A DNA stretch of 39,155 bases from a virus: the IMG/VR virus record IMGVR_UViG_3300025012_000185, positions 1 to 39,155 of that record. One strand, written 5' to 3'. Each line of letters opens with the position of its first letter. Position 1 is the first letter of the stretch. Positions 1 to 24,492 of the stretch are shown piece after piece. Both the position numbers and the translations under genes were made by a program. The notes beneath the pieces were generated by a model. The model was not told where the DNA came from. It made no database searches and saw only the letters and a program-made list of their open reading frames with translations.

Positions 1-82
1 AGACCCTGACGCCTCCGGTGGTGGCAACGACCACGGCGACCTTCGTCCCGACGGCCACGAAGACGGAGAACCAGACGCTGAC
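1..82. repeat. terminal overlap: left copy
   Basis: Bases 1-82 match 39,074-39,155 in direct orientation with one mismatch (C at 5 versus G at 39,078). The overlap lies within the 72-bp coding repeat, so it can reflect either a circular or permuted genome closed by assembly, or simply the internal repeat. The reading frame stays open through the join, which favours a circular or permuted molecule. Confidence 0.8.
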
Positions 83-560: not shown

Positions 561-578
561 TCAGGTAGGATTGGGAAC

Positions 579-1418: not shown

Positions 1419-1427
1419 GAGCAAGTT

Positions 1428-2708: not shown

Positions 2709-2709
2709 C

Positions 2710-5702: not shown

Positions 5703-5760
5703 TCCGCGATAGACAGATCGCCATTTCGGCCGTCAGAATGAGAGGCGGAGGAGAACGTCT

Positions 5761-6261: not shown

Positions 6262-6266
6262 CGAAC

Positions 6267-6929
6267 GTGCCGTATAAGCCAACCAGAGGCTCGGGCGGTG
6301 GAGATTGGGGGGCCGAGGGCTATCGGTACTCCGACCCCGCCGCCGCCATGCTCGGAGCCTTGGGCGGGAACCAGAGCAGGAACAAACTGACCTCCCCCTC
6401 GAACGGGGGATACACAGGAGGATCTATGCCGTTTGGTGGAGGCTACAACTCAGGCCGCCCGGGACCGGATCAGGCCGCGGGGATGAAGAGGGGACCGGGG
6501 GCGCCGGCTGGCGGACCCGTCGGGACTCCTCCCATCTACCAGAACCCGAATCAGGGAATGCGCCCGAACAGCCAGCTCCCGCCGCAGGGGTACCAGCGGA
6601 ACCCCTTCATGCCGGGGCAACAGGCCATCACGCCGATGGGTGGGGCGATCAAGGCCCAGATGGGGAGACGCGGGGTTGGGACGGTTCCGGCGGGGTACGA
6701 CCCGTACAACCCCAATCCGATGGCGCCGGTCGACCTCGGCCAGTCGTATGGGAATGTTGGCGGAAGTGGAGGTCCGATGGACACGGGTGGTAACGCCGCG
6801 GAAGCCCTATTTCGGGAGCGGTATACCGGGGCCACGCCCGGATACTACCAGCGTCGTCGCGGGCTCATGAGCAATCGTGGGATTGGTGGCGCTGGCGGGG
6901 CCGGCAGTGGCGGCGGGAGCGCGTACTAA
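6267..6929 (+). CDS. Gly/Pro-rich low-complexity protein with YQRNPF motif
   Basis: A 220-residue reading from GTG 6,267, five bases after the preceding stop. There is no clear ribosome site at this GTG. An internal ATG at 6,426 has AGGAGG four to five bases upstream and would give 167 residues, but that match lies in Gly-Gly codons and may be fortuitous. Upstream codons keep the G/C-rich third positions typical of this genome, so I keep the long form. The protein is Gly/Pro/Asn/Gln-rich. It contains GYQRNPFMPGQ and ends GGGSAY; both features recur in the next gene (GYQRNPFLQG, ending GGSAY), so the two are probably paralogues. The function is unknown. Confidence 0.62.
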   Translation: MPYKPTRGSGGGDWGAEGYRYSDPAAAMLGALGGNQSRNKLTSPSNGGYTGGSMPFGGGYNSGRPGPDQAAGMKRGPGAPAGGPVGTPPIYQNPNQGMRPNSQLPPQGYQRNPFMPGQQAITPMGGAIKAQMGRRGVGTVPAGYDPYNPNPMAPVDLGQSYGNVGGSGGPMDTGGNAAEALFRERYTGATPGYYQRRRGLMSNRGIGGAGGAGSGGGSAY

Positions 6930-6956
6930 TTTTAACGTAGATAGGAGGTTACTTCA

Positions 6957-7322
6957 ATGCCTACAGGAAACTACGGTGGTCCCAGTGGTCCCAGCGGTGG
7001 TGCGATGACTCAGACGCCGGGGTATAATGCCGGAACTGGTTACGGAACAGTCGGGTACCAAAGAAATCCCTTCTTGCAGGGTCTTGGCGGTCAAGGGACC
7101 TACGGAACGAGTGCCGAGAATGATCTCATCATGGGTGGGACCGGAGACCCCTATTCCGGCTATGCTCCTCCTCCTACTCAGGGGGGGGGGTGGGGCAGTT
7201 CATCAGGATATGGGGGCGGCCCTCCTATGACGCCGCCGAGCGCTCGTCCGCCAACACAAGTTAGTGGGTTTCGGTCTCCCTACGGATATCGCGGGAATGG
7301 TTCTGGCGGGAGTGCGTACTAG
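6957..7322 (+). CDS. Gly-rich low-complexity protein, paralogue of preceding gene
   Basis: A 121-residue protein with a near-ideal ribosome site (TAGGAGG at about 6,941-6,947) before ATG 6,957. It is Gly/Ser/Tyr/Pro-rich. It carries GYQRNPFLQG near residue 35 and ends GNGSGGSAY, matching the motif and C-terminus of the gene before it. Its stop codon TAG directly abuts the ATG of the acetyltransferase gene. It has no predicted membrane segment or enzyme motif and appears disordered. It sits in the virion gene block, so a structural or assembly role is likely but unproven. Confidence 0.68.
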   Translation: MPTGNYGGPSGPSGGAMTQTPGYNAGTGYGTVGYQRNPFLQGLGGQGTYGTSAENDLIMGGTGDPYSGYAPPPTQGGGWGSSSGYGGGPPMTPPSARPPTQVSGFRSPYGYRGNGSGGSAY

Positions 7323-7907
7323 ATGCTCGTCGCGGCCGTCGAACCCGTTGAGATCGACCGCGAACCCGTGCGGTTCCTCTCCATCGTCGAGGCCCCGAAG
7401 TACCAGTTCCCGCTTCGGCCGATCCCGAATTCCTGGTGGACACCTGCCAAAATGGCACAAACGTGGGAGCGGATCTCGGGGTATCCCTACATGCTCGCGG
7501 ACCTCGTCAAGAAGCAGAAGGAGGCTTTCGCGAAGGGAACGGTGTCCGGAGATATCCGCTGGTTCGAACTCGGGGGCGGGGCCGGCTACGCCCACGTTTT
7601 CAACCGGCAGGAGGATGGGACCGCCGACCTGAACTTCGAGTTCGTCGGGGACCACCGGGCCTTCCTGAAGAAGTACGGCGACGGGCGGGAATGTCTGGAT
7701 CTGAGCGTCACGGCAATCATGCGATGGCTGAAGCTGCGGAAACTCCGGGCGTTCGTGGTTGCGGCGAACGGGGCCTCGGTGGCGATGACGAAGCGGTGTG
7801 GATTCCAGCAGGAAGGGTACCTGCGGCAAGAGTGGATCGTGAACGGGCAGCCTGAAGACGTGATCGTGTTCGGGCGGCTTGCGGAGGCGACATGGCAGAC
7901 GAGGTGA
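7323..7907 (+). CDS. GNAT-family N-acetyltransferase
   Basis: A 194-residue protein whose C-terminal part has a typical GNAT (RimJ/RimL-like) signature. It reads VVAANGASVAMTKRCGFQQE (about residues 142-161), then GYLRQEWIVNGQPEDVIVFG, matching the usual N..S..l..K.GF..EG..r.....nG...D pattern around the acetyl-CoA site. The N-terminal half (PKYQFPLRPIPNSWW, DIRWFELGGGAGYAHVF) would form the acceptor side. GNAT enzymes transfer acetyl groups from acetyl-CoA to amines; the substrate here cannot be told. It begins right after the stop of a Gly-rich gene and its end overlaps the next gene by 16 bases, so it is made together with virion proteins. It might modify a virion component or a host target (inference). 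Confidence 0.8.
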   Translation: MLVAAVEPVEIDREPVRFLSIVEAPKYQFPLRPIPNSWWTPAKMAQTWERISGYPYMLADLVKKQKEAFAKGTVSGDIRWFELGGGAGYAHVFNRQEDGTADLNFEFVGDHRAFLKKYGDGRECLDLSVTAIMRWLKLRKLRAFVVAANGASVAMTKRCGFQQEGYLRQEWIVNGQPEDVIVFGRLAEATWQTR

Positions 7908-8248
7908 CGTACACCGGCCCATCCGAAGAACTCATGGAAGCCATGATGCAGTACTACCTGGCCCGCATCGGGAAGCCAAAGGACATGTACCCGGGGCAGC
8001 TCCGGGCGGGCAGGAGCCCTGCTCAGGGGATGGCTCAGGCGCTGATGATGCAGCGGTATTCGAGTGGTGGTCCGCAGTCGTGGAACACCACGAGGGGGTT
8101 CTTGGACAAGTACGGGAGCGGGACGCAGCGAGGCGGTGGCGGTGGTGGCGGTCGAGGTGGCGGAGGGATTCCGCCCTGGATGTTGCAGGCGATGATGAGC
8201 CGCGGTGGCGGACAGGGCGGACCGCAGGGCGGGCAAGGGGGGTACTAG
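7892..8248 (+). CDS. small protein with helical N-terminus and Gly-rich tail
   Basis: A 118-residue protein starting inside the acetyltransferase gene, with GGAGG about 6 nt upstream of ATG 7,892. The N-terminal half is helical with many Met and Gln (EELMEAMMQYYLARIGKPKD, GMAQALMMQRYSS). The rest is Gly-rich around PPWMLQAMMSRGG and ends GGQGGY. It shares composition with its neighbours on both sides. The function is unknown; position suggests an internal virion or assembly protein. Confidence 0.62.
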   Translation: MADEVTYTGPSEELMEAMMQYYLARIGKPKDMYPGQLRAGRSPAQGMAQALMMQRYSSGGPQSWNTTRGFLDKYGSGTQRGGGGGGGRGGGGIPPWMLQAMMSRGGGQGGPQGGQGGY

Positions 8249-8251
8249 GTC

Positions 8252-10150
8252 ATGCAAGTCGGGCACAACCGCAGGAGAGGTGATCCGGACTTTGGTGGTA
8301 GTGCGCTGGGGTATGGGAGTCTTGAGGACATTTGGGACTGGATCGAAACTAATTCCAAGGTCGGGAACGAGCTGACCCAGTGGAACGCCAGGAAGCGGAA
8401 GGAATACCAAGACTACCTCGACAAGTGGTACGAGGAGCATCCCAACGAGCCGCCTCCCGACCCCGGTAAGGATGTGGATCCCGGGATGGGACCCGGCGAG
8501 TATGACGACCCCGCGGAGAAGCCGTGGTCGTGGAAGGATGTGCTCAGTTGGATTGCTTCGACGGGGAAAGACGTGCTCCGTGGCGACTGGCTTGGCGCCG
8601 GGGAGCAGATCTGGGACGCTATTGCTGGCGCAGACATCGACTGGGATTCCATCGAACGGGCTCTCAAGGGCAAGGGCTTGACGCCCGAAGACATCGCGAA
8701 CGCCCGCGATCAGTTTGACCAGTACAGGAAAGACTCCGACGCTCGTTTCAAAAACCGTCGCGGGAACGAGCCTGGGTCTCCTGGCGAAGAAGAGACCGAT
8801 CCGAACAATCCCGGCGGTGGTGCGGGTGGTGTCGGGACACCTCGCGATGGCGGTGTTAGGCCGGATGGCGGCGGTGGTGGGAACTACGACTTCACCCCGA
8901 ACTGGGATCCGAGAGACCCGTCGACATGGCCGGCTCAGATGGGCAACACCGACTACGGGTGGGGCGATGCCGCGCAGCAGTACGGCCCGATGTTGAATCT
9001 CCCCGGAATGGGAGGGGGCGGCGGAAATCCTTTCATGAACGGAGGCGGCGACATGGGCGCTGGAGGGGGCAACTACGGCGGTGGCTACGACCAGGGGGGA
9101 GGCAACTATGCTGGAGGCGGTGGCAATATGGGCTGGGGTGGTGGTGGCGGCGGTAACGCTGGTCCTGATCCTTACTACGGAGTGCCGGGAGGAGGAGACC
9201 CGCGATACCAGCAAAGGCGACCCGACTTCCGAGGATCGCGAGACCTAGACCGGCTCGCCTACTCGTCGGAGAACCGGCCGAACGCGACCATCGATTTCGA
9301 ACGGAATCCGTTCTCGCAGCAGTATGGGTACGGCGGCCAGATGGTGAAGTACAACGAGATGCCGCAGTTCCAGGCGGCGTCCGCTCAGATCGACGAGCAG
9401 ACCGAGCAGGAGATCGCCCAGCAGGCCGAGGATTTCGGTGGTTCCGGGATGCGCTGGTCGAGCGCCCTTGCCGACGCGATGGGGAAGACCCGCCGAGGGG
9501 CAGCCGCGGACAAGAACAAGCTCATGCTCGACATGGACCGGGAAGAGTCTCAGAAGGCGTGGGAACGGCAGATGCAGGAAGCCGGCCAGATGCGCGAAGA
9601 CTACATGGGCCAGACCGGACTCGACTGGGACGTGGCGAGAACGAAGGGCCAGCTCCAGAATCAGATGGGGAACCAGACGTTCCAGAACGTCATGGGTCTC
9701 GACGCCCAGCGCTTCGACCAGAATCGCTACTTCCAGGACAGGGACTACCGGGAGTATGTCGACCAGTATGGTCGCCAGAACGACATGGAACAGCGGTCGT
9801 ATGGGCGCTGGCTCACGAACGACCAGAACGAATTCCAGCGTCAACAGGAAGCGGCGATGCTGGCGATGCAGCTCGGAGGGCAGGAGAATCAGTACGGTCG
9901 CGACCTCTTCCAGGATCTTTGGGGGATGGGGAGGGATGAGCGTGGGATGGAGAACGCGGACAACGAGGCGCTCTATCGGGAATGGCTGCGGGCTCAGGGC
10001 GGATGGGATCAGGAGATCGGTGGTTTCACCGGCGGAGGGGCGGGTGGCCCACAGTTCAAGGCGCCGGGTGGGAAGTGGTGGGAAGATCCGAGGATTTGGG
10101 AGGCGATTGGTGGGGTCGTCGGTGGATACTTCGGAGACGAGGGAGAGTAG
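8252..10150 (+). CDS. large Gly/Gln-rich protein, putative internal virion (ejection) protein
   Basis: A 632-residue protein in three parts. Residues 1-170 are soluble and helical (LEDIWDWIETNSKVGNELTQ, WSWKDVLSWIASTGKDVLRG). Residues 170-330 are a Gly/Asn/Pro low-complexity stretch. Residues 370-600 are a long Gln/Asp/Arg-rich helical region (QMQEAGQMREDYMGQTGLDW, FDQNRYFQDRDYREYVDQYG) likely to form extended helices. It contains GGNPFMNGG and DFERNPFSQQYG, the N-P-F motif of the smaller upstream genes. Position directly before two further large proteins and after the tail genes fits the ejection-protein block of podoviruses. No enzyme motif is seen, so the role is inferred from context. Confidence 0.6.
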   Translation: MQVGHNRRRGDPDFGGSALGYGSLEDIWDWIETNSKVGNELTQWNARKRKEYQDYLDKWYEEHPNEPPPDPGKDVDPGMGPGEYDDPAEKPWSWKDVLSWIASTGKDVLRGDWLGAGEQIWDAIAGADIDWDSIERALKGKGLTPEDIANARDQFDQYRKDSDARFKNRRGNEPGSPGEEETDPNNPGGGAGGVGTPRDGGVRPDGGGGGNYDFTPNWDPRDPSTWPAQMGNTDYGWGDAAQQYGPMLNLPGMGGGGGNPFMNGGGDMGAGGGNYGGGYDQGGGNYAGGGGNMGWGGGGGGNAGPDPYYGVPGGGDPRYQQRRPDFRGSRDLDRLAYSSENRPNATIDFERNPFSQQYGYGGQMVKYNEMPQFQAASAQIDEQTEQEIAQQAEDFGGSGMRWSSALADAMGKTRRGAAADKNKLMLDMDREESQKAWERQMQEAGQMREDYMGQTGLDWDVARTKGQLQNQMGNQTFQNVMGLDAQRFDQNRYFQDRDYREYVDQYGRQNDMEQRSYGRWLTNDQNEFQRQQEAAMLAMQLGGQENQYGRDLFQDLWGMGRDERGMENADNEALYREWLRAQGGWDQEIGGFTGGGAGGPQFKAPGGKWWEDPRIWEAIGGVVGGYFGDEGE

Positions 10151-10153
10151 CGC

Positions 10154-11068
10154 ATGGCTCTGAAACTCCTTGGAGGTTCTTCTCCTGGGCCAATCTGGCA
10201 GGACGAGAGCCCATTCGTCGGTGCGTTCTCGGCGCTCATGAGTGGGATGACGGCGGCGGAGGAGAAGCGCTGGCGGAGGAAGATCGAGAAAGAGCGTTTG
10301 GCGATGGAAAAGGAATCGCGTCAGGCGCTCAAAGAGCAGCGCGAGGCGCAGGCGGAGGATCGGAAGTTCCAGACCGCCGAACGCCAGCGGAAAGCGGAGG
10401 AAGAGGCGGGGCTCCAGAGAGGTATCGAGTTGTTCAACAGGGCCGAGGACCCAACCCAGATCGGCCCGACGGCAGGAACGTTCCAGAAGGCTCAGATGGG
10501 TCCCGGGATCGCTTCAAAACTCATGTTCCGCGATCAAAATCTGACCGGTCCTGAGATCGAAAATATCGAGTCTCGCTACGATCCGGCGGCACACGTCAAA
10601 CGACAGAGAGAGTCGGAGGCCAAGGCCAAGGCGGTTCGTGACGCCAAGCGCCAGGAGGCCGCAGACAAGAGCGCCGCGGGAGTGGCGGAGTACGGGCAGA
10701 AACGCCGGCTTGACGAAAGTCTGATTCGGAGTAGGCCCCTGAAGACGCCCCCCGAACTGACAAAGGCACTGGAATCACTCAACCAGCTGAAACTGCAACG
10801 AGTAAAAATTGCCGGGGCGAAACCGCCGGCTTCGGCGATGGGCGTTACTGACCCGGAAGTGAGCGCAGGCTGGATGCAGAAGTGGAACAACCAGAAGGAG
10901 ACGGCCCTGCGAACAGTGGATGCAGAGATCGCAAAGGCGGCCAAGCTGGTTGAGGCCCTCAGAGGAGGGTTGCCAGCCAACTACTCGGAGGAGACTCCGT
11001 CGGGGCCGCCGATAGAACCACCCGGCGAGTATGACGAAGAGTTGGCGAAGATCGACGCTGCTCTCTAA
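10154..11068 (+). CDS. coiled-coil protein, putative internal virion protein
   Basis: A 304-residue protein with GGGAGAG upstream of ATG 10,154. Residues 34-85 are a highly charged continuous helix (AAEEKRWRRKIEKERLAMEK, QALKEQREAQAEDRKFQTAE) predicted to be a coiled coil. A second helical region covers about 135-165 (KRQRESEAKAKAVRDAKRQE). The C-terminus is acidic and Pro-rich (EETPSGPPIEPPGEYDEELA). It lies between two large virion candidates. It could be an ejection or internal scaffold protein; this is inference from gene order and composition only. Confidence 0.58.
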   Translation: MALKLLGGSSPGPIWQDESPFVGAFSALMSGMTAAEEKRWRRKIEKERLAMEKESRQALKEQREAQAEDRKFQTAERQRKAEEEAGLQRGIELFNRAEDPTQIGPTAGTFQKAQMGPGIASKLMFRDQNLTGPEIENIESRYDPAAHVKRQRESEAKAKAVRDAKRQEAADKSAAGVAEYGQKRRLDESLIRSRPLKTPPELTKALESLNQLKLQRVKIAGAKPPASAMGVTDPEVSAGWMQKWNNQKETALRTVDAEIAKAAKLVEALRGGLPANYSEETPSGPPIEPPGEYDEELAKIDAAL

Positions 11069-11073
11069 AGATC

Positions 11074-14000
11074 ATGGCTGATCCGATTCTGCTCTTCCAG
11101 GAGTACAAGGCCACCAACGATCCGGAGGTGAAGCGTCGGCTTGCCGAGTGGATGCGGGCGAACAAGGGTACGGTCAGAGGCAAGGCGTTCGATGACCTTC
11201 TCGCTGGGATGGGGAAGGATCAGATCGGCAAGACCGAAGGGCCGACGCTGAAGAGCCGCATGACCGAGGGGGCTGGGCCAACGATGCCCACGGCGGAGTC
11301 GATGCGCGAGGGCACGAAGTCGGTTTTTGGACGGATGGCCGCCGACTATGCTCTGGAGCCATATGCGTCCGCCGCAAGTGGGCTAGGAGAGATGGCACAG
11401 CGGAGCACCCTCCCTCGCCAAGTCGGGAAGTTCCTTTCTCAGCAGGGAGACATCGCCAGGGAGCAGGCGGAGGCGATCCGAGGCGAACCACTTCCGGGGA
11501 TGGTCCCCGAACTTGCGTATCAGGCGGTCTCTGGCCTTGGGGCGATGCCGGCGATTCACGCGAAGTTCCAGCCGTTGACATCCGTCGCAACGAAGGCGTT
11601 GGGGAAGGGGCTGCCGGCTTCGATGGCTGGAGCGGGTGCCACGGAATACCTCTCTCACATAGCGGGTGGCCAGTCGGACGAAGATGCCGTTCTCGCAGGG
11701 GCTAAGGCCGCGTCCATGTTGGGACAGGTCGGGGCGGCGGCTCCACTCTCTCCCCTTCGCCGCGCGGGGACTGTCGCGCTGGGGCAAGGTGGAGAAACGT
11801 TGGCCACAGGTGGAAGCCTGGCCGAGGCCGCCGCTGCGGCCGGGATCGGGGCTGGGTTTACGGTTGATGGAGGGCAAGGGGGTTCCGGATTCAAGGACGC
11901 AATGAGGCCAGAGGCCGCGGAGAAGACGGCCCAGAAGGAGCGATTCGCTTCGCTGGAGAAGGAGCGGGTGCGCCAGCAGAAGGAGGCCGAGCAGGCCGCC
12001 AAGGAAGCGGAGGAGCAGCGGCAGGAGGCCGTCAAAGAGAGCTTGGTCGGCGATGTCGTCACGAAACTCCGTGGAGTCCCGCGGGAAGTCGATCCCCAGC
12101 AGGTGCAAACCGTTCTTGAGCAGCATGTCGCCAAGACGATGGGGGAGAACGGGCTTCCTGTGACCCCGGAGGCGGTTGGCGAGGTGCTCAGGCGGAGCAT
12201 CAAGGCCAAGGAAGATGCCGATGCCGTTGCCAACCACATCGAAGCTGAGCGGACCAAGGCCGAAGAGAAGGCCCGGAAAATCGCCGAGCGGGAGCAGAAG
12301 GCAGCCGAGAAGGAAGCCCAGAAGCAGCAGAAGCTCGCCGAGAAGATGGCTCCTGAGCCCCCGGACCCTGCTCAGGTGGCTGCGGAGAAGGGGCACAAGG
12401 TGGCCCAAGCGGCCAAGGCGAGCGTCCCGGCGAAGTCGAGGATCAAGAGCGCCACCCGTGGCAAGGGGACCAAGGTGGCGCAGCTTGGGGCGAGAGCCGC
12501 CAACGGGGACCCCGAAGCGGCTGCGACCTTGGCGAAGTCCACCGACCCAGAGATCCGGGCGGCGGTGGAAGAGGTGACGGCACCCCCCCCCCTCCCCGAA
12601 GGGATGGTCCCTCCCGTCGAAGCCCCCCCCGAAGGAGGGATGAATGCTCGACCAGTCGAAGCCGGCGCCGAGATATTGGCACGGATGACCGAGGGGGAAC
12701 TCGTAGACGCATACCAACGAGCGAAGGCCGCCGACGATGGCTTGTTGGTCGAGGTGTTCGGGGAGGATGGCGCGAAAGCCTACCGGGCGGCCAGGAGAAA
12801 ATCCGAGTCACCCTTCTCTGCTGCGGCCGATCCAGAGGTAAAGCGAGCCGACGCGCTAATCGTGGAAATGGAGAGTCGCCTTAGCGAAGACCAGTACAAC
12901 CGCTTTTTTGGGATTGGCCTTCGCGATGCCGACAATGTCGAAGTCCTAAAGACATATGTCGACGCACACCGCAGTGTCGCCGTGGGCCGCACTGCGGCCG
13001 AGACTGGTGATGAATTGCGCTATCTGGTCACCCGCCTTGACCCGTCCGATCCGTGGTCTCCGGAGGCCGTGACGCTACGAGAGACGATGCGTGTTGCGGC
13101 AGAACAGGGACAGGATCCGAACCAAATCTGGCAGGCCGCCCTCAGGGGATCGGCCGCGCGGTTCGGGGAAGACGCCGATTTCATGTTGCGGCGGTTCATG
13201 CGAGGTGAGAATGCTCGACCAGTCGAAGCCGATAGCGGTAGCCCACCGGGTGGCCCAAATGCAGTTGGCGGCCCTCGCCCTGGGGGTCCCCTTGGAGAGC
13301 CTGGACCCGGAGTCGGCCCAGGCGGCAGAGGCATGGGGCCTGAAGCCACCGTCGCAGGTGCTCTCCCCGAAGCAGCTCGCCCGCCGGGTGTCGAAGGTCC
13401 GCCGCAAGTTGGGCCAGAACCCCGAGGCGTACCTGAACTACCTGAAGCGCTACGGGAACAGCCCCTCCCCGACATCCCGAAAGGGGTCGGCGCAGCGGCC
13501 AAGGCGGTAGGCGCCGAAGATGCGGCCAGGATCAACAAGCATATCGACCCCGAGGGCTTGCTCAACCCAACGAAAAAAGGGATCCCTTCCCAGCAAAAGG
13601 CCGAGAACTACGCAACCATGATTCGTGCCGTCTGGAACAAACCGGAGGCCCGGGACCTGGAGATCCGCGCGACCGCCGAGACCGACTACGTTCCGCGGTT
13701 GTACCGCAAGAGCGACGGCAAGCTCCTCTCGAAAGCGGAAGAAAACGCCATCTGGGAGGCGGGCGATCCAGAGGCGCCGAGCCCGAGCCGGCCGGTTCCG
13801 GACAACCGGAAGACCATCATGAACCAGTGGGTTGTCCCGCTGACGCGGAAGCTCATGAGGCTGTCGATGCCGGATGGTGTCCGACAACATCTTCGAGACT
13901 TCGTCGCGAGCTACGAAGCGCAGACGGGAGAAGCGCAGTCGTATCTCAAGCAGTTGCTGAAGGACCGGGCCGAGGATATGGGGTTCAAGAAGGGGGACAT

Positions 14001-16482
14001 CGTCGAGATGGTGACGGCGCTGGCCCCGCCGAACATGCCCGTCTGGAAGAACCATCTCATCATCAACGTTCTCGATCAGGCAAAAGCCGGGAAGACCCTC
14101 GACGAGGCTCTTCGGAACGTTCACGATCCCAAGAGTGAATACTACGACCCGCGCATAACCCGCGACGCCGAAGTCGAGTTCCGTTCCATGGAGAACACGA
14201 ACAAGCTCATCGAAACGGTGAGAGAACAAGCGTACATGCAGGACGCCGGGTATGACGCGATCGGATTGGTGACGCATCCCGATTGGCATCCTGGCAATCC
14301 CGAGGGGGCGTTCTACCTGCCATCCCTGCGTTCTCAGGAGCGTACGCCGAGTGCGTTTTCCAAGATCATGGCGTCCGTCCTGCGGAAAACTGGTGGTGGA
14401 GGGATCCCGACGAAAGCCGAGCAGGCGCACCAGAAGCAGCGGGAAGACGACATGCACGTTGTCCCGTACAAGTCACCTGGAGTAGAGGGTGGTTCACCTG
14501 GACCCGAGGGGATAGCGAAGAGAACTTTCCTCCGGAAGGCAGACGCCGATGCGTTCAGGGCGCAACTCAAGGCGAAGGGGGTCGACTCCGGCTACATCCC
14601 CCCGCGCCCGTTCCCTGTCCGCATGGCGGAGATGACGCTCAGGGAGCGCCCCGCCGAATGGCTGGCTCGCGGGTTCATCGAAAGCGAGGGGCTTCGGACC
14701 AAGGCTGTCGTGCTCACGGCGTTCGCAAAGGCGGCCAAGGAAGACTACACGGTTGCGAGAGACCGGGTTCTCGGCGACATGGCCGGCGAAGATCCGATGA
14801 TTGCCGAACCGGCGACCGCGGGCCTGTGGAAAAGCAAGTATGTCCCTGTCAAGGAAGCGATCCCGATGGCGGAGGGACTCTGGGATACGAACATCGACAT
14901 GAAGGAGCTGTCCCGGCACCTGATCCGGAAGGACCTCGCCGAGACGCTTCAGGGGGCATGGTCCCCGAAATCGCCGTTCGAGTCGTTCGTCAACATGGGG
15001 GGGGTCGAAGGATTCCTGAAGAAGGGTGTCACGGCGTGGTATTTGCCGCGCCACCCGAAGCAGGTGCTCGTAGAGAACGCGCTCCAGACGTTCGGGGACG
15101 GTGGTTTCCCGATGCTCTATGCGTACCAGAAGGAAGTCCCTGGCCTGTCATACGCACTGGTGCAGACGATGAAGGGCAAGGTCCCCAACGGGAAGAGCCT
15201 CGGAGCGCAGATGCTCCGGGCGCTGCACCTACGCGATGCTGGCGGGAAATGGACTGACGGAAAAGCCACCTTCCCGAAGGGGCAGAAGTGGCTGGAGGCA
15301 GGGATCGACGAGCAGATCGTCAAACTGCTTCTCATCGCGGAGGATGCCGGGTTCCACCGTTCGACGTTTGTCGGGGCGCAGCTTGGCGGGACGAAGCGTA
15401 TCCATGGTGGCGCTGGCGGCGGGCGGCTTGGGGAAATCGGCGGGTTCGAGCGGACGTTTGTGGACGCAGCCAAAGAGAAGGTCGGTCGCCTCCCCGGGGC
15501 TGAGAAAGTCTTCGATCTCGCCAGCAACCTGGAGTTGGCTTACCACGCGGAAGACTTCTTCGCGAAAGTGCATGCGCTGAAGTACCACATGGAGCATGGG
15601 GTGTCCGAAGCGGAGGCTATCGCGCGGGCGAAAGAATTCTACATGGATTTTGCCGACATTCCGGACGGGGCGAGGAGCGGTGTGGCGAAGATGGTGCCGT
15701 TCCTGCCGTCGTTGTACTACAACTGGCAGCGGATCTTTGCCGCGCATACGTGGCATTTTGGGAAAAAGCACCAGCAGCAGTTTCAGATCCGCATGGGGCT
15801 GCTCGCCGCCGGGGCGCTGGGGATCCCGGCAGCGATGCGGCAGGCGTTCTTCTCGGACGAGGAGAAGCGAAAGCTCGGGCGCTTCAAGCCTGGCTGGTTC
15901 GAAGTCCCGATCCCGATCCCCGGCTCGGACGGAAAGTATCTGACCTTCGACCTTGGGAAGTTCATCCCAATGTCGGAGTTGTCGAACCTGTTCCAGAAAC
16001 CGCGAGGCGGTTGGGTCGATCTTCCGAAACAGACCGCACGGAACCTGACGCCGATGTGGACGCAGTTCCCGCAGGCGCTGTTCACGGGCAAGGATCGATG
16101 GGGCTCTGATCTGTACTCCCCGGAAACGGCCGGGATGACGAAGGCGCAAATCCTCGCGAAGGAAGCCGCGAAGAACTACCTGCCGGCGATGCTGGGGTCG
16201 TACACGCTGGGGGCTTACGACAACGCGGTCAAGGACGCGAAGCTCCGGAAGCCATGGGCGGCGCAGTTGGCCCCGATACTCCCGAGTCGCGTGGTGAGCA
16301 AAGAGGTCCATCCCAAGATGGAGAAGAGTCTTCGAAAGCGCGAGATCCGGGGGAGTCAGGCGGCCAAGGGCCGCGCAAGAACAGAGGCCGCCAAGGAGCG
16401 ACAGGACCGGGAGACGCGAGCGCTACAGAAGGCGTACTACCGTTACCTTTCCGGACGTGACGACGAGGAAGAGGAGGAGTGA
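11074..16482 (+). CDS. giant (1802-residue) internal virion / polyvalent-type protein
   Basis: The largest gene of the window. The N-terminal 280 residues are helical with small-residue-rich stretches (SASGLGEMAQRSTL, GAGATEYLSHIAGG). About residues 285-450 are a long Lys/Glu/Gln coiled coil, then a poly-Pro linker encoded by C10 and C8 runs. Residues 530-710 are a compact helical domain (LARMTEGELVDAYQRAKAAD, DQYNRFFGIGLRDADNVEVL). A Pro/Gly-rich linker spans about 713-808, overprinted by another frame. The large C-terminal region includes VAKMVPFLPSLYYNWQRIFA, a pattern I associate with phage ejection or polyvalent proteins, and ends in an acidic DDEEEEE tail. Size, location at the end of the virion block and the helical character fit a T7 gp16-like ejected protein. 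No transglycosylase motif was found. The stop overlaps the next ATG. Confidence 0.68.
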   Translation: MADPILLFQEYKATNDPEVKRRLAEWMRANKGTVRGKAFDDLLAGMGKDQIGKTEGPTLKSRMTEGAGPTMPTAESMREGTKSVFGRMAADYALEPYASAASGLGEMAQRSTLPRQVGKFLSQQGDIAREQAEAIRGEPLPGMVPELAYQAVSGLGAMPAIHAKFQPLTSVATKALGKGLPASMAGAGATEYLSHIAGGQSDEDAVLAGAKAASMLGQVGAAAPLSPLRRAGTVALGQGGETLATGGSLAEAAAAAGIGAGFTVDGGQGGSGFKDAMRPEAAEKTAQKERFASLEKERVRQQKEAEQAAKEAEEQRQEAVKESLVGDVVTKLRGVPREVDPQQVQTVLEQHVAKTMGENGLPVTPEAVGEVLRRSIKAKEDADAVANHIEAERTKAEEKARKIAEREQKAAEKEAQKQQKLAEKMAPEPPDPAQVAAEKGHKVAQAAKASVPAKSRIKSATRGKGTKVAQLGARAANGDPEAAATLAKSTDPEIRAAVEEVTAPPPLPEGMVPPVEAPPEGGMNARPVEAGAEILARMTEGELVDAYQRAKAADDGLLVEVFGEDGAKAYRAARRKSESPFSAAADPEVKRADALIVEMESRLSEDQYNRFFGIGLRDADNVEVLKTYVDAHRSVAVGRTAAETGDELRYLVTRLDPSDPWSPEAVTLRETMRVAAEQGQDPNQIWQAALRGSAARFGEDADFMLRRFMRGENARPVEADSGSPPGGPNAVGGPRPGGPLGEPGPGVGPGGRGMGPEATVAGALPEAARPPGVEGPPQVGPEPRGVPELPEALREQPLPDIPKGVGAAAKAVGAEDAARINKHIDPEGLLNPTKKGIPSQQKAENYATMIRAVWNKPEARDLEIRATAETDYVPRLYRKSDGKLLSKAEENAIWEAGDPEAPSPSRPVPDNRKTIMNQWVVPLTRKLMRLSMPDGVRQHLRDFVASYEAQTGEAQSYLKQLLKDRAEDMGFKKGDIVEMVTALAPPNMPVWKNHLIINVLDQAKAGKTLDEALRNVHDPKSEYYDPRITRDAEVEFRSMENTNKLIETVREQAYMQDAGYDAIGLVTHPDWHPGNPEGAFYLPSLRSQERTPSAFSKIMASVLRKTGGGGIPTKAEQAHQKQREDDMHVVPYKSPGVEGGSPGPEGIAKRTFLRKADADAFRAQLKAKGVDSGYIPPRPFPVRMAEMTLRERPAEWLARGFIESEGLRTKAVVLTAFAKAAKEDYTVARDRVLGDMAGEDPMIAEPATAGLWKSKYVPVKEAIPMAEGLWDTNIDMKELSRHLIRKDLAETLQGAWSPKSPFESFVNMGGVEGFLKKGVTAWYLPRHPKQVLVENALQTFGDGGFPMLYAYQKEVPGLSYALVQTMKGKVPNGKSLGAQMLRALHLRDAGGKWTDGKATFPKGQKWLEAGIDEQIVKLLLIAEDAGFHRSTFVGAQLGGTKRIHGGAGGGRLGEIGGFERTFVDAAKEKVGRLPGAEKVFDLASNLELAYHAEDFFAKVHALKYHMEHGVSEAEAIARAKEFYMDFADIPDGARSGVAKMVPFLPSLYYNWQRIFAAHTWHFGKKHQQQFQIRMGLLAAGALGIPAAMRQAFFSDEEKRKLGRFKPGWFEVPIPIPGSDGKYLTFDLGKFIPMSELSNLFQKPRGGWVDLPKQTARNLTPMWTQFPQALFTGKDRWGSDLYSPETAGMTKAQILAKEAAKNYLPAMLGSYTLGAYDNAVKDAKLRKPWAAQLAPILPSRVVSKEVHPKMEKSLRKREIRGSQAAKGRARTEAAKERQDRETRALQKAYYRYLSGRDDEEEEE
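12642..12664 (+). repeat. 23-bp direct repeat, copy 1
   Basis: The 23-base sequence beginning GAATGCTCGACCAG is found again, identically, at 13,209-13,231. Here it follows AGGAGG (12,633-12,638) at proper spacing from the +1-frame ATG at 12,644. That frame stops after 14 codons (TGA 12,686-12,688). In the main frame both copies encode NARPVEA. Confidence 0.85.
13209..13231 (+). repeat. 23-bp direct repeat, copy 2
   Basis: An identical copy of 12,642-12,664. Here the +1-frame ATG (13,211) opens a 99-codon nested reading frame. GAGGTG lies immediately upstream. Confidence 0.85.
13211..13510 (+). CDS. overprinted 99-residue ORF nested in the giant virion gene (+1 frame)
   Basis: In the +1 frame of the 1802-residue gene, ATG 13,211 to TAG 13,508-13,510 encodes a natural-looking helical basic protein: MLDQSKPIAVAHRVAQ, then LALGVPLESLDPES, SPKQLARRVSKVRRKLGQ and AYLNYLKRYGN. 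In this stretch the main frame encodes only Pro/Gly-rich low complexity (GGPRPGGPLGEPGPGVGPGG) with much lower G/C at third positions. The nested frame keeps the strongly G/C third positions of the rest of the genome. The ribosome site is weak (GAGGTG close to the ATG). A GTG at 13,205 in the same frame is another possible start. Either this is a true overlapping gene or the main frame is translated fortuitously through it. The function is unknown. Confidence 0.5.
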   Translation: MLDQSKPIAVAHRVAQMQLAALALGVPLESLDPESAQAAEAWGLKPPSQVLSPKQLARRVSKVRRKLGQNPEAYLNYLKRYGNSPSPTSRKGSAQRPRR

Positions 16483-18953: not shown

Positions 18954-19526
18954 ATGAAGTGGAAGGCAGAAGAGTTGGAACCGTTGAATGGGAAGCTGAT
19001 CGTGAAGCGGGATCCACCTCCCGAAGAGCTTGGCGGGATCGCGGTGCCGAAGATCGCGGTTGTTCGTCGGCCGTGCAAGGACTGTCATGGGGGTGGGTGT
19101 TTCATCCGTCCGATCTACGAGGAGGATGGGATCTGGATCAGCCGCCACGAGGAGATCCGCTGTGAACGCTGCGACGGGAGGGGGTACCGGGAGGCTGTCT
19201 ACGACCCGAGGCCGAAGGTGACGCAGTGGACGGCTACGGTCGTTTCGGTAGGCCCGGGTAAGCCGCGACGGAAGTTCCGGCTTTCGGACGCCCGGACCCT
19301 TTGGTGGAAGCCTGGACGAGAGACGCTCCCTGTCTCGGCTGGCGACCGCGTCGTCGTGGCTCCTTGGTCAGGAGTAACCGCGGGAGGTTGTGAGCTTGGT
19401 GACGGGTACTGGTTGATTCAGAGCTGGGAAGTGCTAGCAGTTCTGGGTCGGGTTGCCACGGTGCCCCCGCTGCCGGCGGGTTGTCTTCCAGAACCAGCCA
19501 CGCACCCACGGGCGTGCCTGATTTAG
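18954..19526 (+). CDS. GroES (Cpn10)-like co-chaperonin with DnaJ-type zinc insertion
   Basis: A 190-residue protein with AGGAGGAG before ATG 18,954. The GroES pattern is split. Residues 8-32 (LEPLNGKLIVKRDPPPEELG, then GIAVP) match the first strand and the mobile-loop approach. Residues 90-105 (TQWTATVVSVGPGKPR), 127-140 (VSAGDRVVVAPWSG) and 152-164 (YWLIQSWEVLAVL) match the core and last strand. Between them, at about 40-80, is an insert with C41xxC44xGGG and C70xxC73xGRG, like half of a DnaJ cysteine-rich domain. GroES caps GroEL and helps fold proteins; phages such as T4 bring their own for capsid folding. About 27 residues beyond the core (from about 164) run antisense to the RusA-like gene. 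The fold call is strong; the role of the insert is unknown. Confidence 0.75.
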   Translation: MKWKAEELEPLNGKLIVKRDPPPEELGGIAVPKIAVVRRPCKDCHGGGCFIRPIYEEDGIWISRHEEIRCERCDGRGYREAVYDPRPKVTQWTATVVSVGPGKPRRKFRLSDARTLWWKPGRETLPVSAGDRVVVAPWSGVTAGGCELGDGYWLIQSWEVLAVLGRVATVPPLPAGCLPEPATHPRACLI

Positions 19527-19848
19527 CCGGGGTCCAGACGCAGGATTTGATCTGGGCGTCGTCGGCGAGGATGTTGGATTTTTCGAGAAGGTGGCAGATG
19601 GCGTCGAGGATCCCCGGGAGATCCCGGCGCCGCTTATCTCCGGTGGCATAGACGACGGCTAGCGAGACGTCGCACGTGACGAGGGCCACGTCGCGATGGC
19701 CACCGAGCTGGAGCCGGATCGCCGTGAGCGCAACGTCTCGCCAGGCGGTGAATCGTTTCTTGGGAAAGCGGAGTCCTGTTCTGGTGACGATGACGGCGTT
19801 TTTCCCGCTGGGCAGTTGTCCCGGAAGGAAGAGGCTAGCGAGAATCAC
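19234..19848 (-). CDS. rusA: RusA-like Holliday junction resolvase
   Basis: A 204-residue protein; the GTG start at 19,848 has GGAGGAGGAG just upstream, encoded by the end of the preceding gene. The N-terminus LFLPGQLPSGKNAVIVTRTG and the region DKRRRDLPGILDAICHLLEK, then LADDAQIK, follow the RusA layout with Asp76, Asp82 and Asp96/97 as candidate metal ligands. The usual D-x-D-N is altered to DLPG. RusA enzymes cut four-way DNA junctions made in replication and recombination. The last about 60 residues are Arg/Pro/Ser-rich and lie antisense to the GroES-like core, so the true domain probably ends near residue 125. It is the last gene of the early operon. Confidence 0.75.
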   Translation of the reverse strand: MILASLFLPGQLPSGKNAVIVTRTGLRFPKKRFTAWRDVALTAIRLQLGGHRDVALVTCDVSLAVVYATGDKRRRDLPGILDAICHLLEKSNILADDAQIKSCVWTPAKSGTPVGAWLVLEDNPPAAGAPWQPDPELLALPSSESTSTRHQAHNLPRLLLTKEPRRRGRQPRQGASLVQASTKGSGRPKAGTSVAAYPGLPKRP

Positions 19849-20159
19849 GACTCCTCCTCCAGGCGGTCCCTGACGCTGTCCCTGACGCTGTCCCAGAAGC
19901 TGTCCCTGACGCTGTCCCAGACGCGGGCATCGACGCTGGCCCAGACGCTGTCCCCGACGCTGGCCCAGGCGCTGGCCCAGGCGCTGTTCCTGACGCTGTT
20001 CCTGACGCTGGCCCAGACGCGGGCATCGACGCTGTACCAGACGCTGGCCGTGACGCTGGCCCAGACGCGGTCACTGGCGCTGCCCCTGACGCTGGTCCTG
20101 CCGCCGGCCCCGACGCGATCCTTGACGCGGGCCTTGACGCACGGTCCCGGGTCGATCAC
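19845..20159 (-). CDS. tetrapeptide-repeat protein, array gene 5
   Basis: A 104-residue protein, GTG start. It opens with MIDPGPCVKARVKDRV and is then almost entirely four-residue repeats x-x-[S/R]-V (WASV, WYSV, DARV, RNSV, GDSV, WDSV, RDSV), ending RDRLEEES. About 22 repeats are visible, and Val, sometimes Ala or Phe, recurs every fourth residue. The start overlaps the previous gene's stop (GTGA), and its own stop overlaps the RusA start the same way. The Glu codons at its end form the ribosome site for RusA. This minus-strand frame is chosen because it alone preserves start, ribosome site, stop and overlap in all copies. The family is not recognised and the function is unknown. Confidence 0.72.
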   Translation of the reverse strand: MIDPGPCVKARVKDRVGAGGRTSVRGSASDRVWASVTASVWYSVDARVWASVRNSVRNSAWASAWASVGDSVWASVDARVWDSVRDSFWDSVRDSVRDRLEEES

Positions 20160-20422
20160 GGCTCCTCCTCCAAGCTGGCCCCGACGCTGTCCCAGACGCT
20201 GTCCACGACGCGGGACCAGACTCTGGCCCCGACGCGGTCCCCGACGCCGGCCGTGACGCTGTCCCAGACGCGGGCATCGGCGCTGGCCCAGACGCTGTAC
20301 CAGACGCTGTGCCGGACGCCGGCCGTGACGCGGTCCCAGCCGCTGGTCCAGACGCTGGTCACGGCGCTGGTCCTGACGCGATCCTTGACGCGGGCCTTGA
20401 CGCACGGTCCCGGGTCGATCAT
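20156..20422 (-). CDS. tetrapeptide-repeat protein, array gene 4
   Basis: An 88-residue protein, ATG start overlapping the previous stop (ATGA). N-terminus MIDPGPCVKARVKDRV is identical to that of array gene 5 over 16 residues. Repeats such as WTSG, RHSV, WYSV, WASA, DARV, WDSV, GDRV and GARV follow, ending GASLEEEP. The Pro end is the only departure from the LEEES terminus of the others. The codons for LEEE carry GGAGGAGGAG, the ribosome site of array gene 5. The shared N-terminus and variable repeat body point to duplication followed by divergence of the repeats. Confidence 0.72.
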   Translation of the reverse strand: MIDPGPCVKARVKDRVRTSAVTSVWTSGWDRVTAGVRHSVWYSVWASADARVWDSVTAGVGDRVGARVWSRVVDSVWDSVGASLEEEP

Positions 20423-20613
20423 GACTCCTCCTCCAAGCTGGCCCAGACGCGGTCCCCGACGCCGAACCAGACGCGGTCCCAGACGCTGTTCCTGACGCTG
20501 GCCCAGACGCGGGCATCGGCGCCGAACCAGACGCGGTCCCAGACGCTGGCCCCGACGCGGTCACTGGCGCCGCCCCTGACGCTGGCCAAGACACACTCCC
20601 CGGGGTCGATCAT
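20419..20613 (-). CDS. tetrapeptide-repeat protein, array gene 3
   Basis: A 64-residue protein, ATG at 20,613 overlapping the previous stop by ATGA, with GGAGGAGGAG upstream. It begins MIDPGECVLASVRGGA, with Glu where other copies have Pro, continues with SDRV, GASV, WDRV, WFGA, DARV, WASV, RNSV and GDRV, and ends WASLEEES. WDRVWFG occurs twice, showing internal duplication. No membrane segment, signal or enzyme motif. Function unknown. Confidence 0.72.
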   Translation of the reverse strand: MIDPGECVLASVRGGASDRVGASVWDRVWFGADARVWASVRNSVWDRVWFGVGDRVWASLEEES

Positions 20614-20792
20614 GACTCCTCCTCCAAGCTGGCCCAGAGGCTGTCCCAGACGCTGGTCCAGACGCTGCGCCAGACGCGATCCCTGACGCTGAACCAGACG
20701 CCGAACCCGACGCTGGTCCTGCCGCCGGCCCTGACGCGGTCCCTGACGCTGGCCGTGACGCGGGCCTTGACGCACGGTCCCGGGTCGATCAC
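20610..20792 (-). CDS. tetrapeptide-repeat protein, array gene 2
   Basis: A 60-residue protein, GTG start overlapping the previous stop (GTGA). It begins MIDPGPCVKARVTASV and includes RAGGRTSV, an irregular unit also present near the start of array gene 5. It continues GFGV, WFSV, RDRV, WRSV, WTSV, WDSL and ends WASLEEES. It is the shortest member. The shared GGRTSV irregularity shows that genes 2 and 5 are closely related even though they are not adjacent. Confidence 0.72.
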   Translation of the reverse strand: MIDPGPCVKARVTASVRDRVRAGGRTSVGFGVWFSVRDRVWRSVWTSVWDSLWASLEEES

Positions 20793-20983
20793 GACTCCTC
20801 CTCCAGGCTGTCAATGACGCTGTGCCTGACGCGGGTCCCGACGCCGTACCTGACGCTGGCCGCGACGCGGTCCCCGACGCGGTCCCAGACGCTGGCCTCG
20901 ACGCTGGCCTCGACGCTGTCCCAGACGCTGTACCTGACGCTGTTCCCGACACTGTCCCCGACCCACGGCCCGGGATCGATCAT
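20789..20983 (-). CDS. tetrapeptide-repeat protein, array gene 1
   Basis: A 64-residue protein, first of the contiguous array. Its ATG overlaps the stop of the small membrane gene upstream (ATGA). It begins MIDPGPWVGDSVGNSV, with Trp in place of Cys at position 7, as in the distant copy at 24,274. It continues RYSV, WDSV, EASV twice, WDRV, GDRV, AASV, RHSV and ends IDSLEEES. The upstream ribosome site is GGGGATGA-like and weaker than the GGAGGAGGAG between array members. Function unknown. Confidence 0.7.
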   Translation of the reverse strand: MIDPGPWVGDSVGNSVRYSVWDSVEASVEASVWDRVGDRVAASVRYGVGTRVRHSVIDSLEEES

Positions 20984-21099
20984 TCATCCCCCTCGTCGGA
21001 TAACCATCCGTCGATCTGCAACAGCACATACCCGATGAGGCAGGATGCCGCAAGGATCTTGAGTACCTGCCAGTCCTCGGGCGTCATCGCGGGACTCAT
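20980..21099 (-). CDS. 39-residue single-span membrane protein
   Basis: Begins MSPAMTPEDWQ at an ATG overlapping the previous stop (ATGA). It contains one hydrophobic helix (VLKILAASCLIGYVLLQI) and an acidic C-terminus (DGWLSDEGDE). The first 12 bases of its coding sequence are identical to those of the gene upstream (both MSPA). It is too short for usual gene finders, but the overlaps on both sides support it. Small phage membrane proteins of this type may act on the host envelope; no specific role can be given. Confidence 0.6.
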   Translation of the reverse strand: MSPAMTPEDWQVLKILAASCLIGYVLLQIDGWLSDEGDE

Positions 21100-21594: not shown

Positions 21595-21608
21595 CGATGT
21601 CCTCCCAA

Positions 21609-21893
21609 CTAGTTCTCCACGTCCAACACGACTCCTGCAACCCAGCCAACACCCTTGCAGGAAGCGCACGGACCCCATTTCCGTGCGCTCTGCGTGTACG
21701 CAACCATCTGCTCCTTCGCGATCTCCAACGCAATCGTCAGCATCCGCGCGGATTCCTCCATGCACTTCTCGGTCCGCGCCTCTGCAAATTGCGCCGGGTT
21801 CAACCAGAGTGACCCGCAGTCGAACAACACTCCCGTCGCCGGCTGAATTGTCCGCTGTCCCCGCGAACACGAAGGGCACGTTCTTGGCGTCAT
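21609..21893 (-). CDS. small zinc-ribbon-like protein
   Basis: A 94-residue protein. ATG 21,893 overlaps the preceding stop (ATGA) with AAGGTGG upstream. It starts MTPRTCPSCSRGQ (CxxC) and ends near CASCKGVGW (CxxCxGxG), so two Cys pairs flank a helical middle (RMLTIALEIAKEQMVAYTQS). Codon third positions favour this frame over the two others. The second pair resembles the DnaJ-type half motif seen in the GroES-like protein. It may be a metal-binding adaptor. Function unknown. Confidence 0.6.
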   Translation of the reverse strand: MTPRTCPSCSRGQRTIQPATGVLFDCGSLWLNPAQFAEARTEKCMEESARMLTIALEIAKEQMVAYTQSARKWGPCASCKGVGWVAGVVLDVEN

Positions 21894-22210
21894 TCGGTAC
21901 CACCTTCCGCGGCATCCGTTGCTTGTTCGAACGTCACTGGGCGCTCCGTTGGTCGGACACAAGCGACAAGCTCCCACACGCGAGCTGCTGCGCCAGGAAA
22001 CGGAGGGTTCCGTTCCCGTAATCCAAGCCGACCGCGAGCCACAATCCATGATTCACTCATCCCGGTCGCTTCGTTCACCTCCTCGCCGCGGATACGGACG
22101 AAAACTTGGGCGCCGTCTCCTTCGTCCGAGTCGCCAACGTTCTCGGCCATCAGCTCACACACGTAGACCGTTTTCCCTTTGCGAAACGAAATTGTCGACT
22201 GGTGCTTCAT
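21890..22210 (-). CDS. early hypothetical protein
   Basis: A 106-residue protein with AAGGAG upstream of ATG 22,210. It begins MKHQSTISFRKGKTVYVCEL and has a mixed, partly beta-like sequence (DGAQVFVRIRGEEVN, ESWIVARGRLG), then a Pro/Ala-rich part and an acidic end (DAAEGGTE). It overlaps the next gene by ATGA. No recognisable motif. Confidence 0.6.
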   Translation of the reverse strand: MKHQSTISFRKGKTVYVCELMAENVGDSDEGDGAQVFVRIRGEEVNEATGMSESWIVARGRLGLRERNPPFPGAAARVWELVACVRPTERPVTFEQATDAAEGGTE

Positions 22211-23473: not shown

Positions 23474-23754
23474 CAGACACCCAACATGCGCTGAAGCGCG
23501 AGGCTGCACGATTGCCATGAGTATTGTCCGTATTTCGTGAGTAGTCCGAGTCCTATCAGCCGCTCGCGAACGGCATCGCGTGCAGCGCGCAGTTCCGCCT
23601 CCATCGCTCGCAGTCGTTCGAGTTCGGCGAACGTTTCGGCCACAATGCTCGCGTCACCGGGCTGCATGGTCGACAGTTCGAGAGCGGCGTTCGCGAGATG
23701 CTTACGCGCTCGCAATAGTCGTGACGAACTCGATCTTTCCCCCTTCGCCTTCAT
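23470..23754 (-). CDS. helical hypothetical protein
   Basis: A 94-residue protein starting at ATG 23,754, which overlaps the preceding stop (ATGA). A basic Ser-rich start (MKAKGERSSSSR) leads into helices (RARKHLANAALELSTMQ, FAELERLRAMEAELRAARDA), with an aromatic C-terminus (YGQYSWQSCSLALQRMLGVW). Coiled-coil character is likely. Function unknown. Confidence 0.6.
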   Translation of the reverse strand: MKAKGERSSSSRLLRARKHLANAALELSTMQPGDASIVAETFAELERLRAMEAELRAARDAVRERLIGLGLLTKYGQYSWQSCSLALQRMLGVW

Positions 23755-24083
23755 CGCTTTTTCCCCCTTCTCTGCTTTTTCTTGTAGCCGCTGATCCATG
23801 CAGCCGCGTACGCCAGACACCGGATACACCGCGTCGCCGACTTGCCATCCAGCGCGGCCCCGCAACGGCCACAACGGTGAGCGGACATGTAGTCCTGTGA
23901 TCTGGCACGACGCCGGTCCCTGTTCTTCGCAAGACACAAGAGGCACCGCAGGCGCTCGGAAGACTCCTTCTGCTTGCCACACTCGTAGCAACGCCCAGAT
24001 TCCACATACCTGCGTTTTCGGGAATACACCGCACACGTTGGGCAGGAAGCGCGATGCCCGCATGGGAACTTCAAGTCGCTCAT
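23751..24083 (-). CDS. multi-CxxC zinc-finger protein
   Basis: A 110-residue basic protein with ATGA overlap on both sides. It holds five CxxC pairs: CPTC, CYEC, CLLC, CGRC and CIRC, with CGH near the start and a Lys/Arg tail (KKKQRRGKKR). Paired CxxC knuckles separated by basic segments suggest two or more zinc ribbons binding nucleic acid. The layout resembles the N-terminal zinc ribbons that precede HNH domains in some phage proteins, but no HNH motif is present. Early operon position fits a regulator or nucleic-acid-binding protein. Confidence 0.68.
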   Translation of the reverse strand: MSDLKFPCGHRASCPTCAVYSRKRRYVESGRCYECGKQKESSERLRCLLCLAKNRDRRRARSQDYMSAHRCGRCGAALDGKSATRCIRCLAYAAAWISGYKKKQRRGKKR

Positions 24084-24277
24084 CTCATTTCGATCCCTTC
24101 CACCAGGTCGACGAGTTCCCTGGCTTTTCGCGTGGCTTCTTCCGGCGAAAGGCCCTCGTCGATGTACATCGCGTATGCCCGGTCGAAGAGCGGTTCCGGA
24201 GTCAACGTCGCGGCGATGACTTCGGCGGGCGTGTTGTTCGGAATCTGCGGCGGCGGCGGAATGAACATCTCGATCAT
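24080..24277 (-). CDS. small hypothetical protein
   Basis: A 65-residue protein. ATG 24,277 overlaps the stop of the upstream repeat gene (ATGA) with GGAGGAAG upstream. A Pro-rich start (MIEMFIPPPPQIPNN) precedes helices (DRAYAMYIDEGLSPEEATRK, ARELVDLVEGIEMR). The segment 'eGlspeeAtrkA' is common in small bacterial and phage helical proteins. The first bases (ATGATCGA) match those of the array genes, so this gene begins at the same type of junction. Function unknown. Confidence 0.62.
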   Translation of the reverse strand: MIEMFIPPPPQIPNNTPAEVIAATLTPEPLFDRAYAMYIDEGLSPEEATRKARELVDLVEGIEMR

Positions 24278-24492
24278 GACTCTTCCTCCAGGCTGTTCCA
24301 GACGCGGTCCACGACGTTGGCCCTGACGCTGGTCCAGACGCGGTTCCTGACGCGGTCCGCGACGGGTGCCCAGACGCTGGCCCAGACGCGGTCCGCGGCG
24401 CTGGCCCCGACGCTGGTCAAGACGCTGTCCCTGACGCGGCCCCCGACCCACGGTCCCGGATAGAGCTTCCTAGAATGCAGGCTCGTCGTCAT
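24274..24492 (-). CDS. tetrapeptide-repeat protein, detached paralogue
   Basis: A 72-residue protein with GAGGAG upstream of ATG 24,492, overlapping the end of the replication gene by 23 bases. After a unique start (MTTSLHSRKLY) it joins the family at PGPWVGGRV and continues with RDSV, LTSV, GASA, ADRV, WASV, WAPV, RNRV, WTSV, RANV and VDRV, ending WNSLEEES. It is the sixth member of the family, 3.3 kb upstream of the other five in the same operon. Shared PGPW with array gene 1 and the LEEES end show common origin. Function unknown. Confidence 0.7.
   Translation of the reverse strand: MTTSLHSRKLYPGPWVGGRVRDSVLTSVGASAADRVWASVWAPVADRVRNRVWTSVRANVVDRVWNSLEEES

Follow-up and report, generated by a model that had tools for sequence, protein, structure and literature searches.

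The window, which is the whole 39,155-nucleotide stretch of viral DNA analysed here (IMG/VR record IMGVR_UViG_3300025012_000185), encodes on its minus strand a run of five adjacent small genes (19845-20983; hereafter, mini-genes) whose products begin with [MV]IDPG[PE][CW]V and end with LEEES or LEEEP, as the preliminary description gave them. An ATGA or GTGA overlap was found at every junction of the array, including those with the upstream neighbor and with the RusA-like gene that starts downstream at 19848. A sixth, solitary paralogue (Table 1) had been overlooked. The same virus is present in a second record, IMGVR_UViG_3300025030_000200 (hereafter, G001; 43435 bp), with 15 mini-gene copies in arrays of four, three and seven plus a solitary one. 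Each of the 15 family members whose end is intact has a residue count divisible by four, and the paralogues range from 52 to 104 aa in four-residue steps.

Table 1 Features of the mini-gene array and related elements in the window
Feature	Position	Strand	Remarks
Mini-gene 1	20789..20983	-	64 aa; MIDPGPWV...SLEEES; identical copy in G001 array I
Mini-gene 2	20610..20792	-	60 aa; hybrid, from gene 23723-23917 of G001 array I and gene 13430-13660 of array III
Mini-gene 3	20419..20613	-	64 aa; identical copy in G001 array III
Mini-gene 4	20156..20422	-	88 aa; C-terminus SLEEEP; identical copy in G001 array III
Mini-gene 5	19845..20159	-	104 aa; C-terminus RLEEES; identical copy in G001 array III
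Sixth paralogue, solitary	24274..24492	-	72 aa; MTTSLHSRKLYPGPWV...SLEEES (PGPWV near start); ATGA overlap with next gene, start 24277
RusA-like Holliday junction resolvase gene	19234..19848	-	Coupled to array end; PHROG E=9.4e-5; no Pfam call
Small gene upstream of array	20980..21099	-	MSPAMTPEDW...DEGDE; stop overlaps mini-gene 1 start
Shine-Dalgarno site GGAGGAGGAG of RusA-like gene	19848..19865	-	Within LEEES C-terminal codons of mini-gene 5
94-bp sequence exactly common to G001 arrays I and III	about 20658..20751	-	Join site of the ~9 kb loss

With a repeat unit of 12 bp, most frames of the array stay open over long distances, and openness by itself is therefore no proof of coding. What speaks for the reported frame is the conservation of starts, stops and overlaps, together with the Shine-Dalgarno sites, the pattern of codon registers and the related sequences. 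The earlier view that this is a real, expanding coupled gene array is supported at the sequence level. Coding in another frame (the S-G-T/P-A reading) was rejected because conserved starts, stops and overlaps exist solely in the reported one.

The repeat unit reads V(GTC)-x1(NNG)-x2(NNC)-S(NGC), with third bases 92-98% fixed per register and variable first and second bases. GTC fills the V register in 211 of the 253 units of 16 distinct family members, and the remaining units mainly have GCC (Ala) or GGC (Gly) there; the repeats, described at first as strict, are thus regular in register and not fully so in residue. The third base tracks the register rather than the residue, as Gly is written GGG at x1 but GGC in the other registers, and Arg takes AGG at x1 and CGC at S; in the other genes of the phage, GTC makes up just 47% of the Val codons. 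Between close paralogue segments, 30 nonsynonymous and one synonymous codon differences were counted (235 and 6 under a looser limit, with about 23% synonymous as the neutral expectation), an imbalance that is a strong indication and not a formal test because the paralogue pairs are not independent. The suggestion that near-identical subunits could give variation fits this codon-position pattern and the recombination between copies.

The LEEES terminus is encoded as CTG/TTG-GAG-GAG-GAG-TC, with GGAGGAGG lying a few bases 5' of the next start. The Shine-Dalgarno site found within the last codons of mini-gene 5 also precedes the starts at 20792, 20613, 20422, 20159 and 24277. All starts preceded by a mini-gene of this virus's family show a match of 5-6 nt to the complement of the anti-Shine-Dalgarno sequence, against 0-4 nt for array-first genes. 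In one G001 gene the residues are altered to LQEEP while AGGAGGAG is retained, which speaks against the conserved ends being a protein feature, as had been assumed; the last gene of G001 array II, with nothing coupled behind it, is without LEEES. The C-terminus is best read, from the nucleotide pattern, as the Shine-Dalgarno site of the next gene. With its ribosome-binding site embedded, each mini-gene would be self-contained and could be duplicated head to tail without breaking translation.

The two records are 100.000% identical in blocks of 2820, 9801, 756, 301, 6001 and 12156 bases, and about 9 kb of G001 is absent from the window, with the join lying within the 94-bp exact repeat. Because the join falls in this repeat of arrays I and III, mini-gene 2 combines two G001 genes into a hybrid. 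This gene, and with it the exact number of five, may be a product of assembly or deletion, whereas mini-genes 1, 3, 4 and 5 and the sixth paralogue are independent of that question. The sequence is compatible with a true deletion through homologous recombination as well as with a collapse in assembly, and collapse appears likelier because the helicase would otherwise be lost: the absent stretch encodes a DnaB helicase (DnaB_C E=1.3e-75), along with a Cas4/PD-(D/E)XK-type nuclease and a DUF6745 gene. No DUF6745 gene was found in the window record itself; any such gene would have to come from the absent 9 kb. By eye, a GroES-like protein (MKLDVTPLHDRVIVRR...) was also seen in the absent stretch (G001 about 21600-21950, minus strand). 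Array I leads into the DnaB helicase gene, array III into the RusA-like gene and the solitary copy into the gene at 24277, and nothing is coupled behind array II; arrays I and II and the solitary copy do not adjoin DUF6745. An unrelated 72 bp tandem repeat lies at both record ends (window 6-388 and 38997-39155; G001 about 42127-42466), and both assemblies seem to break there because window 1-1237 matches G001 42199-43435 at 99.8%. No reverse transcriptase (RVT_1, PF00078) indicative of a diversity-generating retroelement was detected in records G000-G004, which are possibly incomplete.

Profile searches against Pfam, PHROGs, NCBIfam and PADLOC assigned no family to the mini-gene products, no Pfam match to DUF6745 (PF20530) reached the cut-off in the five products, and megablast of window 1-12000 against named phages returned no match. 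The family had not been recognised earlier, and this held for library profiles; yet the repeats match those found inside phage DUF6745 proteins. When 2.9 million viral contigs were scanned for exact GTC-NNG-NNC-VGC repeats, 71 stretches were obtained, which are unusable for the codon argument because the scan pattern fixes the third bases. Some of these are unrelated repeats, and the largest class comprises internal segments of 'IVWCGSPLSQGLTRAI-(xxSV)n-YGQHDA.WLAFY' proteins, confirmed as DUF6745. Other DUF6745 proteins have xxQL, xxQV or xxAV repeats at the equivalent place, and in most phages found the (x-x-S-V)n repeats sit within DUF6745 proteins. In two such fused relatives (L009 and L056), the repeats differ in length and order, with the C domain 96% and the N flank 100% identical.

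A tblastn match in Mycobacterium phage prophiGD102-1 proved to be another DUF6745 protein, with xxQL repeats, and matches were also obtained in Nocardia and Hymenobacter plasmids. For the role of DUF6745, the literature search found no paper and PADLOC gave no match. The DUF6745 proteins from Actinomycetota genomes (L177-L199; Streptomyces, Actinomadura, Nonomuraea and others) were scored without tetrapeptide repeats in the survey and possibly represent a cellular version of it. The same xxSV repeats also occur in another type of phage protein (L066, L072, L035, L047 and L063), where they precede a C-terminal part with YPFQPAVDLWxxGLVPSxDGKxWRLHSG, and one of these proteins had a sub-threshold DUF7666 match.

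AlphaFold2, run on 15 paralogues, predicted a helix over residues 23-103 of the 104-aa product (mean pLDDT 70, pTM 0.32), and a PDB fold search with the mini-gene model gave no match. The DUF6745 model was obtained with pLDDT 75 and pTM 0.60, and its PDB fold search returned nothing usable. Of the solenoid or helical assembly proposed earlier, the helix is plausible, given one long predicted helix of moderate confidence, and a solenoid was not seen. Tetrapeptide repeats of this sort tend to come out as helices in models. A simple coiled coil would not be implied, since Val every four residues drifts around the helix. Judging from the models, the mini-gene rods are probably helical.

The G001 DUF6745 gene (14224-15120, minus strand; PF20530 E=5e-34) encodes a plain linker where other DUF6745 proteins bear repeats, and its stop lies two bases 5' of the start of the first of seven mini-genes. 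Recurrence with the same start and end motifs, which the preliminary description had looked to for support, was not found, as IMG/VR held no MIDPG/LEEES mini-genes beyond the two records of this virus; the same architecture with other motifs did recur, in three further contigs (L098, L090 and L115) from a survey of viral and genome DUF6745 loci. In L098, DUF6745 overlaps MIRSVSGSV...KEAP, followed by MKPPLVSV...KEAP, with the Shine-Dalgarno AAGGAGG in the KEAP codons, and the record has a second array elsewhere. The L090 genes, VDDGK(R/C)V-(xx[AD]V)n-VEQEVRRG with Shine-Dalgarno AGGAGGTG, lie one gene from DUF6745 and run over the contig ends. In L115 the array is upstream of DUF6745 and consists of two stacked xxRV genes, the first cut by the contig end; no clear Shine-Dalgarno was seen at the second repeat-gene start, and the DUF6745 start has one. 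The start and end motifs differ among the four cases, and a repeat-less DUF6745 with overlapping mini-genes and a Shine-Dalgarno in the preceding C-terminal codons is common to G001, L090 and L098.

Adjacent free-standing rods were found in 4 of 10 repeat-less viral lineages and in none of 44 loci with internal repeats (p=0.0007; the lineages were counted manually, as was L115, whose open frame had been merged by the script). When all loci are taken, the figures are 4/23 repeat-less versus 0/44 (p=0.012). These counts leave out extra repeats near L112, L116, L129, L145, L166 and others, which are mostly short-unit and without the xxSV pattern, and also L104, as a possible frameshift. On a tree of 104 DUF6745 domains, every split row falls among rows with internal repeats and the split state needs four changes, which the starred branches force; L098 and L115 are long branches, with their exact placement less sure. 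That fission took place four separate times, each time giving this layout, points to a function borne by the repeats themselves.

Several further observations were made around these loci. At L104:4181-4522, tetrapeptide repeats occur in two successive frames just upstream of the DUF6745 frame; they could stem from a frameshift or a sequencing error, or mark a further split case. DUF6745 is neighbored in two phages by a small gene that has QGDV and TGHxH motifs (phrog_27831), at G001 15107-15457 (minus strand; equal to L080:9108-9458) and, in L090, directly downstream of DUF6745. In two different split phages (L213 about 284-460; L212 after 945), the final repeat gene of the array continues into the residues RTAIK.

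We put at about even odds (roughly 0.5) the reading in which the mini-genes encode helical repeat rods that were split from DUF6745, are produced as a coupled set differing in length and sequence, and work in trans with DUF6745, possibly as a counter-defence. The split and stacked architecture is well supported by sequence, and the function is what we infer. The mini-genes would be the split-off, multiplied counterpart of the repeat segment inside most phages' DUF6745 proteins, with translational coupling making the array members together and the rods acting in trans with the phage's DUF6745 protein. The copies would grow, shrink and recombine in 12-bp steps, so that the phage would hold several rod lengths and surfaces at once. 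With less confidence, and by analogy with Tweety gp54, in which repeat number sets the prophage defence overcome, the module may serve tunable recognition or counter-defence, and the array might then hold several settings at once. A bolder version, which we regard as unlikely, is that one tunable repeat protein was repeatedly turned into a co-expressed repertoire, in which a repeat-less DUF6745 core and coupled, interchangeable helical rods, each differing in length and surface, would provide several recognition or counter-defence specificities per infection and a recombination reservoir.

A less likely reading gives the repeat proteins a structural role, as rods or scaffolds that form part of a filament, spacer or assembly, and not one in recognition or counter-defence. 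The one long helix in the model would suit such a role, DUF6745 carries no defence annotation, and arrays I and III run straight into the DnaB and RusA-like genes. However, structural parts seldom diversify so fast, and here the repeat segment changes while its flanks remain 96-100% identical. To our knowledge, Tweety gp54 is the sole tetrapeptide-repeat phage protein to have been tested. It is a counter-defence factor, according to two reviews (PMC9262239, PMC8549241).

It seems improbable that the array reflects selfish or slippage-driven expansion, with 12-bp repeat DNA and gene units multiplying by recombination and having little function: the high internal similarity, the 94-bp exact repeat between arrays and the lengths in multiples of four residues are what such a process would leave, but the open frame, starts and overlaps are preserved in all copies, synonymous change is nearly absent, and the same layout arose four separate times beside the same gene family. 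More improbable still, the mini-genes could be coupling leaders, supplying the gene that follows (DnaB, the RusA-like gene or the gene at 24277) with ribosomes and a Shine-Dalgarno, with the peptide as filler. Although a strong Shine-Dalgarno site does stand at each mini-gene end, and DnaB follows array I as the RusA-like gene follows array III, one leader would suffice where up to seven are consecutive, and array II leads into nothing. Filler should also drift at third positions, whereas first and second positions vary here, and the same repeats also occur within DUF6745 proteins.

The split rods can be set beside several known systems. Phage DUF6745 (PF20530) proteins share the repeat grammar, in which x1 is W, R or G; they have (x-x-S-V)n, (x-x-Q-L)n or (x-x-A-V)n repeats internally, in a segment that varies between near-identical proteins; their repeats lie between an N-terminal segment and the DUF6745 domain, whereas here they form separate stacked genes. 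The HsdS subunits of type I restriction enzymes (EcoR124I type) have a TAEL helical spacer with 12-bp repeats, the copy number of which changes specificity; the likeness, drawn by description, is a 12-bp repeat giving a tetrapeptide, in this case in a host enzyme and in two or three copies. Also by description, gene bbp36 of Bordetella phage BMP-1, reported to be dispensable (as cited in PMC2884959), offers a variable-number repeat, its variable region 2 (VR2), but with a 24-bp element in a single gene.

Tweety gene 54, described in 2007, has a 12-bp unit encoding a tetrapeptide with invariant third and variable first and second codon positions, and its group (with Che8 gp57 and PMC gp51) shows W/G variation at one position and repeat numbers that differ between relatives (PMC2884959). 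The mini-genes likewise have a 12-bp unit, near-invariant third and variable first and second codon positions, W/G variation at one position, and a repeat number that varies between relatives (52 to 104 aa). In contrast, gp54 is a single protein whose AA-x-x repeat is flanked by unique N- and C-terminal parts, while the mini-genes are many free-standing rods in which only MIDPG[PE][CW]V and LEEES flank the repeats. Escape mutants of gp54 gain or lose tetrapeptide repeats and thereby switch the prophage defence overcome (PMC9262239, PMC8549241), and the repeat mechanism is stated to be obscure (PMC8549241). Because gp54 is not a DUF6745 protein by Pfam, the functional link is one of analogy. 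The array is a new, repeatedly evolved form of the phage tetrapeptide-repeat protein type already known from Tweety gp54, and the split form gives a handle on the repeat question, as its rods can be expressed, removed, swapped and counted apart from the DUF6745 core.
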